The notes beneath the pieces were generated by a model. That model was given only the letters and a program-made list of their open reading frames with translations, did no database searches and was not told where the DNA came from. Shown here in pieces: positions 2-20,080 of a DNA stretch of 21,370 nt; within the stretch, counting starts at the first letter, position 1; each line of letters begins with the position of its first letter. Origin of the DNA: a virus; IMG/VR virus record IMGVR_UViG_3300010318_000073, positions 1-21,370 of that record. One strand, 5' to 3'. A program made the translations under genes and the position numbers.

Positions 2-1543
2 ACTACAGGTAAAGAACAACCAAAAACTGTAATGGGTTTTAATGTAAGAAGTAAAGAAGACAAAATTAAAGACAAAAAAGATCAAATCGCTCTAGCAAAA
101 CGTAATGCTCCTAAAAGTGGATTAACTACTAAAGATGTTCCGCAATTAGAAAAAGAACTTGCTGACTTAATGAAAGAAGCAGAAGGTATAAGCGGAGAAG
201 AAGAAGATAAATTCCACCGTGAGTTAGACAATCTAGTTCACAAAACATTTGGGCACAGTTCAGATGAAAAGAAAGATAATGGAAAATTTTCCGACAAACA
301 GATCAAAATGGCGTTTGGTGTACTTAATGATCCAAGATATCATCAAGGCAATTACAGTGGTGCAGTTGCTACAATCGAAAAGATTGCAAAAGGTTTATCA
401 AAACACCCTAGCGTTGCAAATGCATTAAAAAGAGCAAACGAAGATATTAACGAATACAAAACTGACAAAGTACAAAGTACTTACGATGAAATTATGAAGG
501 GCATTAGAAACCGTGGCCCTGCTGAAGAATCAGAAGTAGGAGATTATATTCCAAGTGGTATGACAGGCGAAGAGATTCGTAAACTAATTGATATGTTGGA
601 ACCTCAAGGATATGATAAAGAATTTTTATTAAAAGACCTTGCACCTATGATGGAATACGAAGGCCAAGTAGAACCAAGAGCACACACAATTACACTATCA
701 GGCGATTATGATCCTGAGCATGGAGTTAGTGAAAAAGATGCAGAAGATATAGAAAAACTTTTAGCAAGAGCAGGTATTAATGCAGATGTAGAACCAAGTG
801 AAGAAGCATTTGACAAAGTAATTGTTCATACTATGTCTGATAAACAAGCCGTTCTTAAAGTACTAGGTAATCTAGGAGAAGACGATGAACCTGCTACAGT
901 TTCATCGGGCAACAGTGTATTAGACAGATTAAGACTAATTGTTAAAGATAAGTCAAATGCTAAAGTACAATTAGATGATGGTGAACTAAGAGTTGACTTG
1001 TATACTGCAAGTGCTATTACTCAAGTATACGATAAAGTTAATGATGCTAACAAAGCCAAAATGGAAAAAATGATGAATACTAAAGAAGGATTAGTTAAAT
1101 TAACTAATGCAGTATTTGGAATTTTAAACAAAGGCAAAATGGGCGAATCTATGTCAGACAGTATTGGCAAAGATATTGAAAAAGGATTAAGTACTGACGC
1201 TATTATTGGCAAATATGCTAATAAACATACTGATAATACAGATGAAATTCGTAAAATTATCCAACGTAAAAAATGGGATAAGCGTATGAAAGAAAGACCA
1301 ATTACTATTAATCACTGGACTGAAAGTGTTATCGACGAAAACGTTTTAAATGCATACAGAGAATTAATTGAAAAAAGATTAAATGAAGCATATAACCCAG
1401 ATGCAGAAGCAAAGATGAATAAAAAAGATGCTAGGCAGAAAGCATTACAAGATATCCAAATGGATCCAAACACTGCAAAAGATCCAGAATTACGAAAAGA
1501 ATTAATCAAACGTAAAGCTCAACTCGATAAAACCGGAGAGTAA
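2..1543 (+). CDS. 3' part of a large Lys/Glu-rich phage protein (5'-truncated by window edge)
   Basis: The reading frame is open from base 2 to the TAA at 1541-1543, with no stop before the first Met codon at 32 and no ribosome binding site there, so the true start probably lies left of the window. The 503 residues after that Met are very rich in Lys, Glu and Asp and look mostly helical. A compact alpha/beta-looking segment near residues 220-270 carries the short motif ITLSGDYDP, and a second folded-looking part lies near 295-370. The C-terminal 70 residues are again charged helix. There is no signal peptide or membrane segment. I do not recognise a family. The neighbours and composition would suit a structural or head-associated protein, but that is only a guess. 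The gene abuts the next one, whose ATG begins one base after the stop. Confidence 0.8.
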   Translation, partial: TTGKEQPKTVMGFNVRSKEDKIKDKKDQIALAKRNAPKSGLTTKDVPQLEKELADLMKEAEGISGEEEDKFHRELDNLVHKTFGHSSDEKKDNGKFSDKQIKMAFGVLNDPRYHQGNYSGAVATIEKIAKGLSKHPSVANALKRANEDINEYKTDKVQSTYDEIMKGIRNRGPAEESEVGDYIPSGMTGEEIRKLIDMLEPQGYDKEFLLKDLAPMMEYEGQVEPRAHTITLSGDYDPEHGVSEKDAEDIEKLLARAGINADVEPSEEAFDKVIVHTMSDKQAVLKVLGNLGEDDEPATVSSGNSVLDRLRLIVKDKSNAKVQLDDGELRVDLYTASAITQVYDKVNDANKAKMEKMMNTKEGLVKLTNAVFGILNKGKMGESMSDSIGKDIEKGLSTDAIIGKYANKHTDNTDEIRKIIQRKKWDKRMKERPITINHWTESVIDENVLNAYRELIEKRLNEAYNPDAEAKMNKKDARQKALQDIQMDPNTAKDPELRKELIKRKAQLDKTGE

Positions 1544-3112: not shown

Positions 3113-3841
3113 ATGAAGTACAGAGAAATACTACCAGCAAACGAAGGTATACAATATCACCTTACTAATAATCTTCCGCTACACGAATCAGTGTTTCGTA
3201 TGGGCAGTGACGAGTATTTTAGAATGTTTAGTGATGCAAGAAAAATGTATAATGAAGGTAAGTTAAAAGACTTACATTGGTTTGATGAAGAGATTTTAAG
3301 AGATACACTACTCGGCGAATGGACAGAAACTAGATGGGGCAAAGTTCCTCTAGACATGATTATTGATGAAGAGAACCATACGGCATTTATTGAAGGTACG
3401 TTGACAAAAGCACAAATTAAAAAACGTGATAAACTTGCTGATAAAATGCCAGACAAAGAATTCAAAAAACGCTATGGAGATGATTGGGAGGCTGTAAAAT
3501 ATGGAGCCGCAACAAACATAGTTAAAGGCGAAAGTATCGAAGAAGCAGAGTATAGAGGCAAGACGGTAGACCTTAATAAACCAAAACGTGGTGGTAGTAA
3601 AAAGTTCTATGTTTACACTAAGAATCCAAAAACAGATAATATAGTAAAGGTCGAGTTTGGTGCAGAAGGCGGTGGAGGTAATTTAGCAGTTAAACTAAAA
3701 GACCCTAAAGCAAAAGCAAGTTTTGCCAGTAGACACGATTGCGAAAATAAAAAAGACAAAACCAAAGCAGGCTATTGGAGTTGTCGTTTACCACGTTATG
3801 CAAAAAGTTTAGGATTAAGCGGTGGCGGAACTTGGTGGTAA
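3113..3841 (+). CDS. Probable phage structural protein with C-terminal Cys/aromatic module
   Basis: The 242-aa product has two parts. Residues 1-150 form an acidic, helical region ending in a segment of the type KRDKLADKM...FKKRYGDDW, a pattern I associate with marine T4-like structural proteins. Residues about 160-242 form a compact basic module with KKFYVYTKNPKT, a Gly-rich turn, a repeated KDPKAKASF and HDC210ENKKDKTKAGYWSC224RLPRY, ending in GGGTWW. The two cysteines and conserved aromatics look like a small folded domain reused at the C-terminus of several phage proteins. The N-terminus MKYREIL is faintly reminiscent of a capsid-targeting leader, but no clean cleavage site follows it; LHE at residues 23-25 is the nearest. 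No ribosome site precedes the ATG. Function is unknown; a virion role is inferred. Confidence 0.72.
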   Translation: MKYREILPANEGIQYHLTNNLPLHESVFRMGSDEYFRMFSDARKMYNEGKLKDLHWFDEEILRDTLLGEWTETRWGKVPLDMIIDEENHTAFIEGTLTKAQIKKRDKLADKMPDKEFKKRYGDDWEAVKYGAATNIVKGESIEEAEYRGKTVDLNKPKRGGSKKFYVYTKNPKTDNIVKVEFGAEGGGGNLAVKLKDPKAKASFASRHDCENKKDKTKAGYWSCRLPRYAKSLGLSGGGTWW

Positions 3842-4124: not shown

Positions 4125-4158
4125 TAATACATAATAATTAAATTATAAGGATTTGTGT

Positions 4159-4800
4159 ATGGCCTTTTTAGTTCATAACTTACCCCCTATTGATGTATGG
4201 GTTAAAAAAGAATATCTGTACGATTTAGAAAAGGGTCACGGTGAACTAACTCCGGGCCTTTGGATCTCAGTTAAAAGTGTAGAGGGTAAAGCATTATACT
4301 TCGAAACACTGTTAACTGAATATGGAGCACTATATGATAAACTTCCTATTAGTGCATTCGTTTGGAAAAAAGATTTCAGCACGGAAGACCAACTGCCACT
4401 AGACACTTTGCAGATTTGGGATTGCTTTGATTATGATATTGCAGTAATTAAAAAGCCGATGCTTTGCGATTGTGAATTCTTTGGCAAGGATAAAAAAATG
4501 CACAAAGGTGAGTACCTCTTTACAATAGATAACGCACATAGAGATAGGGTCTATTTAAATCAGAATTTATCCGAACATGATCCAGAGCACAAATCCTTTA
4601 ATATATTAAAGTTAGACAATGGACAATTTGCGGCACAACCTAATAATAGAATTGTGTTTACTGATCAAAGTTTAATACCTACAAAACGTTTAATGCCAGA
4701 TTTTAAAGTTTGTACACAAAACTATACAGTTGAAAACACACCTAAATGGAGTGTAGGACACACTGATGAGTGGAACTACAAAGACGAATCCGAACAATAA
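4159..4800 (+). CDS. Conserved-type phage protein of unknown function
   Basis: The start chosen is ATG 4159, preceded by AAGGA at 4147-4151; a TTG six bases earlier is possible but less well placed. The 213-aa protein is soluble, acidic and rich in aromatic residues. It has alternating strand-like segments such as GLWISVKSV and SAFVWKK, an internal CDC pair (MLCDCEF), and KGEYLFTIDNAH near the middle. There are no membrane segments, no signal peptide and no catalytic motif that I recognise. A possible late element lies upstream, and its stop overlaps the start of the radical SAM gene by one base (TAATG), so the two are translationally coupled. I cannot assign a function. Confidence 0.68.
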   Translation: MAFLVHNLPPIDVWVKKEYLYDLEKGHGELTPGLWISVKSVEGKALYFETLLTEYGALYDKLPISAFVWKKDFSTEDQLPLDTLQIWDCFDYDIAVIKKPMLCDCEFFGKDKKMHKGEYLFTIDNAHRDRVYLNQNLSEHDPEHKSFNILKLDNGQFAAQPNNRIVFTDQSLIPTKRLMPDFKVCTQNYTVENTPKWSVGHTDEWNYKDESEQ

Positions 4801-5936
4801 TGAACGATAAGTATTGCCATCATATTGAGCATGGTTTAGCCTATGACGTAAATGGTCGAACTGCACCTTGTTGTCAGTTTAGAGGCAATGATGATCCTAC
4901 TTTTATAAAACCTGACGATTATTTTCAAAGTGATTGGTTAGCAAACATTAAACAACAGATGTACAACGGTGAGGAAATTGAAGGCTGTCAACGTTGTTAT
5001 AAAGATGAAGCAATTAGTGGAAATAGTTACAGAACAAGCACCAATCAATCACAAGAAAAAAAATTACATTTTACTTATAGTAATATTTGTAATAAGTCGT
5101 GTAATGTTTGTAGGCCACAAAGAAGTCATTTAGTTGGTTTAGATTATAAAAAAGTTTTAGAAAAAGACCCTGACAATTATTTTATGCAGGAAAAATTTAA
5201 AAAACAAGAAAATACAGCAAAAATTGTTCAAAGCGGAAAATTAAAATTAGAAAGTATTGTTGACTGGGTAGCACAAAATAAATTTAAAAATGTTATACAT
5301 AGATTTAATCTAATAGAGTTTGACGGTGGTGAACCTTTTATGCATCCAGAATTACATAAGATGTTTGATATGTTACTAGAGGAAAACTATCAAGGTCAGT
5401 TAGTAATAACATCTAATGGTAGTGTAAATGTTGATTATTTAGAAAAATTAAAACAGTTTAACAAAGTTAAAATACGATTAAGTATTGACGGTGTATATGA
5501 TTTATATGAAGTTGTAAGACCTCCACATAAATGGGATTGGTTAGTAGAAAAAGTAAACTTAATAAAACAATACAAGAATATAGAATTAGGAGGTAGTGCA
5601 GTTATTCATGTGTTTAATGTACACCAACTTTCAGATATGATATTAGAATTTGAAAAATTAGGATTTAATAAAATAAGTTTAAATCCTTTAGGGCAACAAG
5701 AATATTTACACGCATCATTATGTCCTGAAGAAGTATTACAAGATAGTATAAAACAAATAGAAAATATAGATTCACAAAGATACAGTAAAGTTATTAATTA
5801 TTTAAAAGGTTGTATTAGTAAAACTGTTACTACAGAACAAGTAAAACTATTTCATGCTTATATAGACTCATTTGGTCCTGTTAAGAACATTAACTATCAG
5901 CAATATATTCCATGGAACTTCGAGTTGATAAAGTGA
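4800..5936 (+). CDS. Radical SAM protein with N-terminal twitch-like Cys cluster
   Basis: The start is taken as ATG 4800 (TAATG overlap with the preceding stop), although a GTG thirty bases upstream is in frame. The 378-aa protein carries the radical SAM [4Fe-4S] motif C97-NKS-C101-NV-C104 after a first strand, then DGGEPFMHP (about 175-183), which binds S-adenosylmethionine, then an ITSNG strand and a later RLSIDG strand. This is the usual partial TIM barrel. The first 70 residues hold C6, C24-C25, C63 and C66 in the pattern of an auxiliary-cluster (twitch/SPASM-like) region: APCCQF, then GCQRCYKDE. Related proteins are frequent in cyanophages and pelagiphages, and none that I know of has a defined substrate. 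It is too long, and wrongly organised, for QueE. It may act on a peptide or protein. Confidence 0.85.
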   Translation: MNDKYCHHIEHGLAYDVNGRTAPCCQFRGNDDPTFIKPDDYFQSDWLANIKQQMYNGEEIEGCQRCYKDEAISGNSYRTSTNQSQEKKLHFTYSNICNKSCNVCRPQRSHLVGLDYKKVLEKDPDNYFMQEKFKKQENTAKIVQSGKLKLESIVDWVAQNKFKNVIHRFNLIEFDGGEPFMHPELHKMFDMLLEENYQGQLVITSNGSVNVDYLEKLKQFNKVKIRLSIDGVYDLYEVVRPPHKWDWLVEKVNLIKQYKNIELGGSAVIHVFNVHQLSDMILEFEKLGFNKISLNPLGQQEYLHASLCPEEVLQDSIKQIENIDSQRYSKVINYLKGCISKTVTTEQVKLFHAYIDSFGPVKNINYQQYIPWNFELIK

Positions 5937-5942
5937 TAAATA
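5936..5942 (+). promoter_or_regulatory. T4-late-like promoter element ATAAATA
   Basis: GATAAATAA follows the radical SAM stop and lies 24 bases before the ATG at 5967, with AGGA (5954-5957) as ribosome site between them. ATAAATA is the core of the T4-type late promoter, which suits the suspected virion protein downstream. Confidence 0.5.
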
Positions 5943-5966: not shown

Positions 5967-7034
5967 ATGCGAGCCAAACAATTTATTAGAGAATACACAG
6001 ATTTAGAGACTGCTAAAAAAGAAATACTTGCCAGTATTAGTCAAATTGATCCTAATACTGATGATGAAGATGCTAAAAAGCAGGCTGAACAAGTCCTTGA
6101 TAAAATCTATACTGTTCTAAATAAGAACAAAGTATTGGATCGATTCACGTCAGTACTACCATCCGTATTAAAAGACGAATATAGCGATACCGAAATTCTA
6201 AAAATTGCAGGCGAAATTGCTAAGGCTCCTTTATCATATGCAGAAAAAATGAAATTTACTGATAACTTGGCTAGTAACAAAGTTATTAATCCTAAAGTAT
6301 TAATAACTCCTGGTACTTACACTATTGACAAACTATGTTTTGATAGTGCAGTTAACAAAGAAGTATTCTTACATTTAAGAAGTTACGGCGTGGGTAAACT
6401 TATGAAAGGTCCAATGGAACACGCATTGGCTATTTTAAGTTCAACTATTACTATTAAAGGCAAAGGAGATGTTACCGTAGGTAATATTCCTGTAGAAGTA
6501 AAAGCCGCTATAGGAGATAAAAAAGGATCTGGTGGCGGACGTTTTGGCGAAACAGGTGCAGTTCCTAGCAGAGAAAAAATGTTAGAAATAGTTACAAGTG
6601 ATCCAAAAATGAAAGGTCCTGTTGAAGAATTTTTAGCAAATCAAAATAGTATGAATATCGAAACATTTACCAACATTGCCAATTCGGCATTTAAAGGCGA
6701 TCCAGCAGGTAAGAAGAAATTAGGACAAGCAGTATTTAAAGAAATATTTGGTACATTTGGAGAAAGTGTTGCCACTGCATTTGCGAAAGATAATGCAGAT
6801 CCTAATGATGTAAGAAAAGCGTACATCAGAGCAAACTTTGATTGGTATAAAGCATCCGATCAAGGTGGTGCATGGCAAGTACTAGTAGGTATTAGTATGC
6901 CAGATAATTCTGTAGGTGTTATGAAAACGGGTGATGATTTTGATAAAGTAACTACTGCTAAAAAGAATCCGGCAATTATTACAACTGGAAAACCGCAAGA
7001 AATGTTATTCCAGTTCAATCCAAAACTTTCATAA
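5967..7034 (+). CDS. Putative capsid-targeted PD-(D/E)xK nuclease
   Basis: The 355-aa product begins MRAKQFIREY, which strongly resembles the capsid-targeting leader of T4 internal head proteins: a basic start, then Phe-Ile-x-Glu. T4 gp21 protease cuts after such (Leu/Ile)-x-Glu sites, here after Glu9. A helical region of roughly 130 residues follows. Then comes a likely nuclease core: E151 in a helix (GPMEHALAIL), a strand with GD168V, and VE177-V-K179 in the next strand, the E...GD...ExK layout of the PD-(D/E)xK superfamily. A Gly-rich basic loop follows (GSGGGRFG). The remaining residues form an alpha/beta region with no motif I know. A late-type promoter element precedes it. My reading is that it is packaged in the head and injected with the DNA to act on nucleic acid early in infection. 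Leader and fold are visible; the injection role is inferred. Confidence 0.68.
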   Translation: MRAKQFIREYTDLETAKKEILASISQIDPNTDDEDAKKQAEQVLDKIYTVLNKNKVLDRFTSVLPSVLKDEYSDTEILKIAGEIAKAPLSYAEKMKFTDNLASNKVINPKVLITPGTYTIDKLCFDSAVNKEVFLHLRSYGVGKLMKGPMEHALAILSSTITIKGKGDVTVGNIPVEVKAAIGDKKGSGGGRFGETGAVPSREKMLEIVTSDPKMKGPVEEFLANQNSMNIETFTNIANSAFKGDPAGKKKLGQAVFKEIFGTFGESVATAFAKDNADPNDVRKAYIRANFDWYKASDQGGAWQVLVGISMPDNSVGVMKTGDDFDKVTTAKKNPAIITTGKPQEMLFQFNPKLS

Positions 7035-7042
7035 AATAACGG

Positions 7043-7069
7043 TTGACTTCACATTTATAATCGTATAAA
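7043..7069 (+). promoter_or_regulatory. Probable sigma70-type promoter for dsbA
   Basis: TTGACT (7043-7048) is followed by TATAAA (7064-7069) with a 15-base spacer, somewhat short. An alternative -10, TATAAT at 7056-7061, is too close to this -35. It sits in the 76-base gap before the DsbA gene, whose AAGGAG ribosome site is near 7100. The TTGACT matches the -35 of the promoter at 10790. Confidence 0.5.
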
Positions 7070-7110
7070 CTAACAACAATCAATATATCAATTACGAACA
7101 AGGAGTTCAC

Positions 7111-7386
7111 ATGAGTGCAGATAAGGTTTTTAACTCTGAGGAAAAAGCAAAACTAACTCAGGTAATTAACGAAGGTATTAGCGTAATGCAAGAAGTCGAA
7201 GACTTAAACGAAGGTCTTAACGACACAGTAAAAGCAATCGCAGAAGAAATGAGCATTAAGCCTTCAGTTCTAAAGAAAGCAATTAGAACTGCTCACAAAG
7301 GAAACTTCCAAGAAAATGCAGATGATTACGGTTCACTAGAAAATATTCTAGCAACAGTAGGTAAAATTGCTGGAAGCAATAATTGA
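7111..7386 (+). CDS. dsbA: DsbA-like double-stranded DNA-binding, late-transcription protein
   Basis: The 91-aa product is close in length to T4 DsbA (about 89 aa) and has the same plan: an acidic helical N-terminal half with FNSEEKAKL and a long Glu-rich helix, then KAIAEEMSIKPSVLKKAIRTAHKGNF. The latter resembles a helix-turn-helix (helix, IKPS turn, basic recognition helix). In T4, DsbA binds double-stranded DNA near late promoters and assists late transcription. A promoter candidate and a strong AAGGAG ribosome site precede it. Its TGA stop overlaps the TTG start of the next gene. I recognise the family with fair confidence from the C-terminal half; no biochemical role is shown by the sequence alone. 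Confidence 0.75.
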   Translation: MSADKVFNSEEKAKLTQVINEGISVMQEVEDLNEGLNDTVKAIAEEMSIKPSVLKKAIRTAHKGNFQENADDYGSLENILATVGKIAGSNN

Positions 7387-7664
7387 AGAAAATAAAATCC
7401 TTTTGGATTAATTCATATAAAAGCGATAGAATAGCATTTTACTTTGAACTTATAAGTTTTATTTTCACAGTAAGTGCTAGTCTAACTTTGGCATTTAATG
7501 CCAGAGATCCAAATATGATGTATGTATACCCAGGATTCTTTATAGGATCTACCACACAATGCTATGCGGCATATAGGCGTGGGGCGGCTTGGGTAATGAT
7601 GTTAACTTTCTATTTTAGTTTGGTTAATATATTTGGATTTGGAATAGCCGCAAATTGGTGGTAA
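7383..7664 (+). CDS. Small membrane protein, 93 aa (TTG start)
   Basis: The frame starts at TTG 7383, overlapping the TGA of dsbA by 3 bases, with GGAAG about 7 bases upstream. The product begins with a basic stretch (MKKIKSFWINSYKSDR). Three hydrophobic segments follow, near residues 18-40, 48-60 and 68-90, with NARDPN between the first two and YRRGAAW before the last. This suits an inner-membrane protein with a cytoplasmic N-terminus. The end is NWW. I recognise no family. Similar tiny membrane proteins cluster in early regions of T4-like phages; a role in membrane takeover or exclusion is only a guess. Confidence 0.62.
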   Translation: MKKIKSFWINSYKSDRIAFYFELISFIFTVSASLTLAFNARDPNMMYVYPGFFIGSTTQCYAAYRRGAAWVMMLTFYFSLVNIFGFGIAANWW

Positions 7665-7676
7665 CATTGGCATACT

Positions 7677-7850
7677 ATGGCAGTATACTATAAGGCATTA
7701 GTAACTAAAGGCAAATTAGAGGCAACGGTATATTGGTATGAAAAAACTTATTCTAAACTAATGGAATCGGTTGACTTTTTATACAAATATGCTAAAGTAG
7801 ACGCAGTAGAATTAGAAATGATTTCAAAAAATGAGTACGAAAACAGATAG
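7677..7850 (+). CDS. Small hypothetical protein, 57 aa
   Basis: The frame runs from ATG 7677 to TAG 7848-7850. It encodes a Tyr/Lys/Glu-rich peptide starting MAVYYKALVTKG with alternating polar and hydrophobic residues. An antiparallel beta pair followed by a helix seems likely. The upstream ribosome site is weak. It fills an otherwise empty interval between two membrane-protein genes and overlaps the next gene by 20 bases, as is typical of this genome. I recognise no family; coding potential rests on packing and on the codon use being like its neighbours. Confidence 0.5.
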   Translation: MAVYYKALVTKGKLEATVYWYEKTYSKLMESVDFLYKYAKVDAVELEMISKNEYENR

Positions 7851-12134: not shown

Positions 12135-13601
12135 ATGAAAACTAATTTAACAGAACAACAAAAAGACTATGCAATCTTTTTGCCTGCACTTAGTACATTC
12201 TATGCATTGTTTGTAGGTAGACAAAGACGACACGAGTATATTCCTTATAATCGTGTTCCAAGTTTTTTACAACACGGAGTAGAAAGTATTAACTGGTTGG
12301 CACCTGAAGGGTTGTGGCAATACAAATGGAGTTTGCACTCGGCAGGACACGCCAGTTTAGATTTGCAAAAAGATATGTATCGAGAAGATATGTATAGAGA
12401 TAGAAATCGAAATACTAGTTGGTTGTTAGGCGACAGTGGAGGCTTTCAGATTGGTAAAGGCAAGTGGGAAGGCGACTGGCGTAAAGGCAGTGGATGTCCA
12501 CAAGCACAGAAGAAACGTGAAGGCGTTCTTAAGTGGATGGATGCTTTTATGGATTATGGAATGATTTTAGATATTCCGGCATGGGTAAGCAGAAGTCCAG
12601 AAGGTGCAAGTGCTAGTAAAATTAGTTCTTATCAAGAAGCAGTAGAGGGAACACAACAAAATAACGAATACTTTATTAAGAATCGTAATGGTAATTGTAA
12701 GTTCTTAAATGTTTTACAAGGTGAAAACTTTGCACAAGCAGACGATTGGTATGCACAAATGAAACACTTTAGTGATCCTAAAGTTTACCCTGATGCACAC
12801 TTTAATGGTTGGGCAATGGGCGGTCAAAATATGTGTGACTTACATCTTGCTCTTAAACGTGTAGTTGAATTACGTTTCGACGGTTTACTTGAACAAGGTA
12901 AACAAGACCTTATGCACTTCCTAGGTACAAGTAAACTTGAATGGGCACTAGTACTTACTGATATTCAACGTGCAGTAAGAAAAAATCATAATCCGAACTT
13001 TACTATTACCTTTGATTGTGCAAGTCCTTTCTTGTGTACTGCAAATGGTCAAATGTATACGGGACATAGAACAGAACAAAATGAAAAATGGAGTTATTTA
13101 ATGTCGGTTGCTCCAGATGATAAAGCATTAAGTTCTGATACTAGACCTTATGATGATATGGCTACAGAATTCTTTAAGAAGTCTGATACTGTCTGGATGC
13201 CTACGCCTATTACTAAAGGACTAAAAGTAAACGATGTATGCATCTATAGTCCAACAGATGTAAACAGAATGGGCACAAGCACTAAAACTAGTTGGGATAG
13301 TTTTGCATATGCACTTATGATGAATCATAATGTTTATACACATATTAATAGTGTACAAGAAGCAAACAGAGAATACGACACAGGCAAATATCCTAATATG
13401 CTAGTAGATGATAACTTTGATAAAACTGAAGTTAAAGATGTAATTGCTAGAATTTTTGAACTGGATAGTAAAGATAAAGCATTACAACTTATCGAAGATC
13501 ATACAAAGTTATGGATGAAAGTTGTTGGTACAAGAGGGTACGTTGGTAAAAAGACAATCAATGCATCTAGTCAATTTAATAGTCTATTTGAGGAAGCCTA
13601 A
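12135..13601 (+). CDS. dpdA: TGT/DpdA-like 7-deazaguanine transglycosylase
   Basis: The 488-aa protein shows the tRNA-guanine transglycosylase TIM-barrel signatures in order. LLGDSGGFQIGKG holds D100, the base-binding or acid/base Asp. LDIP holds D146, and NVLQGEN follows at about 192-198. Then come GWAMGGQ (226-231), MHFLGTSK (260-267) and FDCASPF, with D294 as the predicted nucleophile. No CxCxxC zinc site of canonical TGT is visible. This divergence, the extra length and the phage setting favour the DpdA branch, which inserts 7-deazaguanine bases into DNA, over a tRNA-queuosine enzyme. GGAAG precedes the ATG by 4 bases. The stop overlaps the next start by one base. FolE at 19394 could feed the same pathway. 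Whether it acts on DNA is inferred. Confidence 0.78.
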   Translation: MKTNLTEQQKDYAIFLPALSTFYALFVGRQRRHEYIPYNRVPSFLQHGVESINWLAPEGLWQYKWSLHSAGHASLDLQKDMYREDMYRDRNRNTSWLLGDSGGFQIGKGKWEGDWRKGSGCPQAQKKREGVLKWMDAFMDYGMILDIPAWVSRSPEGASASKISSYQEAVEGTQQNNEYFIKNRNGNCKFLNVLQGENFAQADDWYAQMKHFSDPKVYPDAHFNGWAMGGQNMCDLHLALKRVVELRFDGLLEQGKQDLMHFLGTSKLEWALVLTDIQRAVRKNHNPNFTITFDCASPFLCTANGQMYTGHRTEQNEKWSYLMSVAPDDKALSSDTRPYDDMATEFFKKSDTVWMPTPITKGLKVNDVCIYSPTDVNRMGTSTKTSWDSFAYALMMNHNVYTHINSVQEANREYDTGKYPNMLVDDNFDKTEVKDVIARIFELDSKDKALQLIEDHTKLWMKVVGTRGYVGKKTINASSQFNSLFEEA

Positions 13602-19393: not shown

Positions 19394-20080
19394 ATGAGTA
19401 TTAGTGAAGAAATTAAAAAACGTATTAAAGATGATAACGGTCGATATTGGGCCGGAGACAACATTAGTAAATATTTAGAGCAGGGCGACAAAGATAAACT
19501 TATCGAAGAACTTGCTCCTAAATTTCACGACATTTTACAGTCGTTAGTAATTGACACAGACAATGACCCAAACAGTAGAGATACTGGTAGACGGTTAGCA
19601 AAGATGTACATCAATGAATTGATGTCTGGTCGTTACAATCCAAAACCAAATGCAACTGCATTTCCACAAGAACTTACAGACGCTTACACAGGAATATTAG
19701 TAGTTCGTAGTGAACTTAAAAGTGTATGTAGTCATCATCACCAACCAGTAAGTGGTGTAGCATATATTGGTATACTTGCGGCACATAAACTTATTGGACT
19801 TAGCAAGTACACTCGTATTGCTCAATGGTGTGCAAGACGTGGTACACTACAAGAAGAACTATGTAATGATATTGCAAGAGAAATTATGAATGCAACTGGT
19901 TCTAATGATGTAGGCGTTTATATTCAAGCAACACACGGTTGTTGTGAGAATAGAGGTATTATGGCTCACAGTAGTTTAACACAAACAACTGTACTAAAAG
20001 GTGCTTTTAAAGATGACCATGGTACTAAAAAAGAATTTTTCGATAACATTAAATTACAACAAGAATTTGCTCCAAGGTAA
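19394..20080 (+). CDS. folE: GTP cyclohydrolase I (FolE type)
   Basis: The 228-aa protein is close in length to E. coli FolE (222 aa) and carries its signatures. DPNSRDTGRRLAKMY (58-72) parallels the TPKRVAKMY region. VC112SHHHQPVSGVAYIGI has the first zinc Cys and H115. LIGLSKYTRIAQWCARR (133-149) matches the family block, and H181GC183CENRGIMAHSS holds the last zinc Cys and the RG loop. It converts GTP to dihydroneopterin triphosphate, the entry to folate/biopterin and also to preQ0. In a phage carrying a DpdA-like gene, feeding 7-deazaguanine synthesis is attractive, but folate supply for nucleotide synthesis is equally possible. A dedicated promoter and TAGGAG ribosome site precede it. 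Confidence 0.94.
   Translation: MSISEEIKKRIKDDNGRYWAGDNISKYLEQGDKDKLIEELAPKFHDILQSLVIDTDNDPNSRDTGRRLAKMYINELMSGRYNPKPNATAFPQELTDAYTGILVVRSELKSVCSHHHQPVSGVAYIGILAAHKLIGLSKYTRIAQWCARRGTLQEELCNDIAREIMNATGSNDVGVYIQATHGCCENRGIMAHSSLTQTTVLKGAFKDDHGTKKEFFDNIKLQQEFAPR

Follow-up and report, generated by a model that had tools for sequence, protein, structure and literature searches.

A family of putative PD-(D/E)xK nucleases with T4-type capsid-targeting leaders in a giant phage and its relatives

Here we describe a 355-aa protein from a giant marine phage of the T4 superfamily, a jumbo phage, that combines a T4-type capsid-targeting leader with the residues expected of a PD-(D/E)xK nuclease core. 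Its gene occupies positions 5967–7034 on the plus strand (ATG start, stop codon included) of the window, a 21-kb IMG/VR record (IMGVR_UViG_3300010318_000073; 21,370 nucleotides) covering part of the phage genome. In our preferred reading, to which we assign a probability of roughly 0.55, the product is a late-made endonuclease that is packaged through its leader, trimmed by a gp21-type protease, retained in the head and most likely ejected to attack non-phage DNA. Sequence comparison gives good support to a new family of nucleases that travel as head cargo of the T4 type. The kind of protein is already known from the internal head proteins of T4, to which this one adds a putative nuclease variant.

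Results

A conserved phage gene outside catalogued families

By gp43 polymerase, the nearest relatives of the phage are Sinorhizobium phage Phosso (48% identity) and Agrobacterium phage Atu_ph07 (46%), and contigs of its relatives reach 306,714 bases (contig G001). The open reading frame is real: it begins with ATG, encodes 355 aa and is kept in about 30 IMG/VR loci on viral contigs, where close relatives share 45–88% identity. Neither the protein nor its relatives belonged to any family in Pfam, PHROGs, NCBIfam, PADLOC or the PDB sequences, a collection of 50,697 phage records contained no close relative, and a pattern-based search of GTDB genomes returned no homolog. The earlier remark that no example had been described in this phage group holds for the libraries and literature searched.

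A T4-type leader recurs across divergent nuclease families

The first-pass annotation proposed that the N-terminus mirrors the cleavable leaders of T4 internal proteins, and this leader, MRAKQFIRE followed by Y10, with I7-R8-E9 as the site, is present exactly as described. It spans residues 1–9 (5967–5993, plus strand), with a predicted prohead-protease cut after E9 that would leave Y10 as the mature N-terminus. Across residues 1–43 of 17 aligned relatives, E9 and Y10 were the sole invariant columns, and position 7 was always I, L or V. The T4 leaders compared were those of IpII and IpIII (MKTYQEFIAE) and of gp24 (MAKINELLRE); the residue following the cut is A or S in T4 but Tyr in the window leader.

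To avoid circularity, we scanned viral contigs with the nuclease core alone, leaving out the leader, and fixed the leader expression before the scan, although its wording drew on the window family and on T4, both already examined. The scan yielded 80 ORFs, of which 70 carried the GxxE helix motif; these 70 formed 15 clusters at 50% identity, and most clusters matched the window family at E values of about 1e-29 to 1e-5. A T4-like leader was found in 7 of 13 nuclease clusters as against 12 of 298 clusters of other genes from the same contigs (Fisher P = 1.3e-6), and leaving out the window's own cluster gave 6 of 12 (Fisher P = 1.2e-5). Leaders in the divergent families include MRAREFLAED, MRHFEFISEE, MRAYEFLTEA and MRANEFLVED.

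Single matches to the leader expression are not rare, and one could suppose that the protein is an ordinary cytoplasmic nuclease, serving host DNA breakdown, recombination or a selfish element, whose resemblance to head leaders arose by chance. The suggestion to look for the same leader in other genes of the genome was taken up in G001, where it was found in 4 of 389 genes, a weak enrichment over the shuffle mean of 1.2, and the expression also matched at 7 of 1,849 internal Met positions. Position-specific LxE enrichment was not seen over all G001 N-termini, so the argument from the leader rests on the nuclease families and the polyproteins described below, not on the whole proteome. Against a chance resemblance stand the association of leader and nuclease in independent families, the conservation of LxEY at polyprotein junctions, and the late promoter and synteny with head genes; we regard this alternative as very improbable.

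G001 also encodes T4-like gp20, gp21 and gp23, so that, as for the T4 internal proteins, a T4-like prohead protease occurs in the clade and two marks of T4-type CTS cargo, the short (L/I)xE leader and these homologs, are present. The cut region of G001 gp23 reads RHLSE/AATSGA, the T4 counterpart being FLTE/A; together, the T4-like gp21 and the HLSE/A site make an LxE-cutting prohead protease likely. With the leader, the polyprotein sites and the head-gene neighbours taken together, head targeting and gp21-type processing of the product of 5967–7034 are well supported.

Candidate protease-released polyproteins

In six loci (L015, L062, L111, L112, L131 and L133) the nuclease domain lies at the C-terminal end of a chain of 959–2,174 aa (1,790 aa in L015, 959 aa in L062), preceded by a leader and by either amidoligase modules or basic modules of the DUF5872 type; L015 carries an Amidoligase_2 domain. 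Each chain contains two to four [LIVM]xEY sites, compared with 0.8–1.9 expected. One such site lies directly ahead of the nuclease domain in every polyprotein and another at residues 13–18 in every one with an intact N-terminus, and in L111 the insertion between leader site and nuclease is bordered by LNEY and LKEY. These sites look like retained protease sites, and the chains are possibly head polyproteins released by the protease. Separately, L015 encodes at 7286–7819 an Fe/Mn superoxide dismutase (Pfam E = 8e-25) with the leader-like start MRLENLTEQ, for which head packaging is possible.

Catalytic-type residues are invariant in a probable PD-(D/E)xK fold

E151, G167-D168 and E177-V178-K179, which the first-pass annotation had singled out as a PD-(D/E)xK pattern, are all at the residues named and are invariant in the 17 relatives. 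E151 lies in the helix region MKGPMEHALAI (residues 147–157; 6405–6437, plus strand; predicted helix 149–157), and D168, E177 and K179 lie in the core strands KGDVTVGNIPVEVK (residues 166–179; 6462–6503, plus strand; predicted strands 168–171 and 174–181). They are followed by a conserved loop, GGGRFGE (residues 189–195; 6531–6551, plus strand), of which G190-GRFGE195 is invariant in the 17-member alignment. GPxE is likewise invariant within the family, whereas among 16 divergent representatives of the superfamily the only invariant columns are GxxE, present in all 16, GD and ExK. The ordered residues E, D and (D/E)xK that characterize PD-(D/E)xK enzymes were thus found in all 17 relatives and all 16 representatives.

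Two AF2 models (pLDDT 81.4 and 86.4, with moderate residue-level values of about 62–88 across core residues 141–200) place a helix at 149–157 and strands at 161–164, 168–171 and 174–181, followed by a helical insertion and then a further helix and strands. This predicted helix-strand-strand-strand order fits the PD-(D/E)xK core topology, and the protein shares with that superfamily an E in the helix, a D at the start of a strand and ExK on the next strand. It differs in a helical insertion of about 100 residues after the ExK strand and in having no match to a curated family or solved structure. Foldseek returned no match in the PDB for either model, and the PD-(D/E)xK assignment accordingly draws on motif and secondary-structure order; against BFVD it retrieved three uncharacterized phage proteins (E = 1e-13, 2e-9 and 9e-5). 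Of the earlier nuclease assignment, the invariant E/D/ExK residues over about 15 divergent clusters and the predicted order stand, but structural corroboration from the PDB did not follow, and we consider a PD-(D/E)xK fold probable.

That neither profile nor fold searches recognized a nuclease family, and that other leader-type neighbours of the gene are small basic proteins, would also suit a degenerate nuclease fold retained as a structural or DNA-binding protein of the head core without catalysis. Yet E, D, E and K persist without exception in 15 clusters that otherwise have little in common, as one would expect if selection acted on catalysis, and we judge a degenerate fold improbable.

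Late promoter element

The late-type ATAAATA element reported ahead of the gene is indeed there: GATAAATA lies at 5935–5942 on the plus strand, 24 nt ahead of the ATG. The motif is uncommon in these genomes, and the window contains ATAAATA only twice, compared with 13.3 occurrences expected from dinucleotide shuffles. In G001, it occurs in sense orientation within 60 nt upstream of 42 of 395 genes, as against 7 of 395 in the antisense control (binomial P = 5e-20), and it also precedes the nuclease homologs of the closest group. This enrichment and the presence upstream of the closest relatives indicate a real late-promoter class and not chance, and the promoter element points to late transcription of the gene. 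A scan for host-type −35/−10 promoters around the gene gave nothing clearly exceeding shuffles; a weak TTGACT/TAAACT promoter-like match lies at 7043–7071.

Gene neighbourhood and proximity to the packaging machinery

Upstream in the window, the gene at 3113–3841 (plus strand) encodes a likely head-core protein with a leader-type N-terminus and a conserved PLHE/S site, whose basic C-terminal module (phrog_7595) also occurs in hypothetical proteins of pelagiphages and of Methylophilales and Flavobacterium phages. A 503-aa ORF at 32–1543 (plus strand; weak head-morphogenesis PHROG match, E = 0.07) resembles the large ORF preceding the block in locus L010, where it belongs to an array of leader-type genes upstream of the nuclease. 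Also nearby are genes for a phage 'ferredoxin' PHROG protein (4153–4800), adjoining one for a Twitch-domain radical SAM protein (4770–5936; NF033640 above cut-off), and, directly 3′ of the nuclease gene, for a DsbA-like transcription regulator (7111–7386; phrog_639). Several radical SAM genes are present in G001.

Other lineages place the nuclease gene beside packaging genes. TerL starts about 35–70 bp downstream of it in L012/L013- and L040/L043-type loci and about 0.7–1.7 kb downstream in a group resembling the cultured Flavobacterium phage immuto. In immuto itself, the homolog gp078 is the third gene ahead of terL, with two genes intervening, and the portal and prohead-protease genes come next. 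Immuto gp078 (YP_010114605.1, annotated as hypothetical) shares the GKGE...GD...EIK core and a leader-type start with the window protein but is very divergent from it, having no direct BLAST match and being linked through intermediates such as L070.

Such positions, with TerL immediately following the gene in several lineages and portal and prohead-protease genes close by in others, would suit a head-maturation or packaging nuclease that is recruited into the prohead core by its leader and trims branched, damaged or foreign DNA near the terminase in the producing cell, and is not injected; the late promoter and the leader evidence fit that role equally. However, the gene is not near TerL in the window's closest group (in G001 it lies about 135 kb away, outside the head operon), and the fusions to large multi-domain chains resemble polyvalent proteins, which are injected. 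In addition, leader proteins of T4 are retained in the capsid and pass into the host cell (T4 literature; PMC3012670, PMC5512222). We therefore consider a packaging nuclease possible but rather unlikely, and favour a nuclease that stays in the head and is ejected. The packaging part of the original proposal is strongly supported by the conserved leader, the LxE site that persists in polyproteins, the late promoter and the proximity to terminase, portal and prohead-protease genes in several relatives; a role as an injected weapon is plausible.

Discussion

The closest known parallel is provided by the T4 internal proteins. IpI, IpII, IpIII and Alt are processed by gp21 and injected, IpI acting as a nuclease inhibitor and Alt as an ADP-ribosyltransferase. 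The window protein shares with them an N-terminal leader of about ten residues, an (L/I)xE cut site and late expression as predicted from its promoter; it differs in its cargo, a 345-aa putative PD-(D/E)xK nuclease. Proteins carried in the head for action in the following host are also known from phage P1 (DarA, DarB and Hdf) and among the ejected proteins of phiKZ-type phages, which have other cargo and longer propeptides and are likened here by function alone. The T4 leader itself packages foreign proteins, staphylococcal nuclease included, into active virus (PMC3012670). Chains L015, L062, L111 and L133 further recall the polyvalent proteins of phages (Iyer et al. 2017; PMC5512222) in being large leader-bearing chains with amidoligase or short basic modules and a C-terminal nuclease. 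Polyvalent proteins combine at least two unrelated activities in one chain; relatives such as L015 are multi-domain, whereas the window protein is free-standing. Passages of that survey name ParB-like and other DNases, not the present family.

We infer the following course of events, in which virion presence, cleavage, nuclease activity, ejection and target would all have to hold. A PD-(D/E)xK-type endonuclease would be made late and drawn into the prohead core by its T4-style N-terminal capsid-targeting sequence, where the gp21-type prohead protease would trim it after [LIV]xE at residue 9. The trimmed enzyme would stay in the mature head alongside the DNA and would most likely leave together with the genome at ejection, entering the next cell to attack DNA foreign to the phage: the host chromosome, plasmids or a competing phage.

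Counting against this best explanation, a packaged nuclease would need protection of the phage's own DNA. A candidate is 7-deazaguanine modification, which shields phage DNA from restriction enzymes (PMC6884629). The window encodes a TGT/DpdA-like 488-aa protein with a GDSGGFQ motif (12135–13601) and FolE (19394–20080), and QueD- and QueC-like genes are present in G001; the TGT/DpdA-like ORF and FolE suggest a 7-deazaguanine DNA-modification pathway. The ORF at 12135–13601 had no match in Pfam or NCBIfam, and since no family model names it, self-sparing by this route is a lead only. Its orthologs, annotated as hypothetical, occur in PA5oct-like Pseudomonas jumbo phages, Phosso and Vibrio phage 2.275.

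More broadly, the joint recurrence of leader and cutting-site residues in many distantly related phages suggests an unrecognized, widespread class of virion-carried DNA cutters. A bolder generalization, which we advance as doubtful speculation, is that T4-superfamily phages widely carry virion-borne endonucleases that are injected and destroy DNA lacking the phage's own modification (possibly 7-deazaguanine here), amounting to a portable, capsid-borne restriction system that is sometimes released from polyproteins by the prohead protease.

The combination of leader and core signature allows such cargo to be recognized across a large number of genomes. Judging by the polyprotein forms, the prohead protease may be able to free head proteins from a single chain. 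If the preferred reading is true, it raises the question of how a virus stores a nuclease beside its own DNA. Some large phages would then hold a preformed DNA endonuclease inside the capsid, and host takeover or the exclusion of rivals could start ahead of any phage gene expression.
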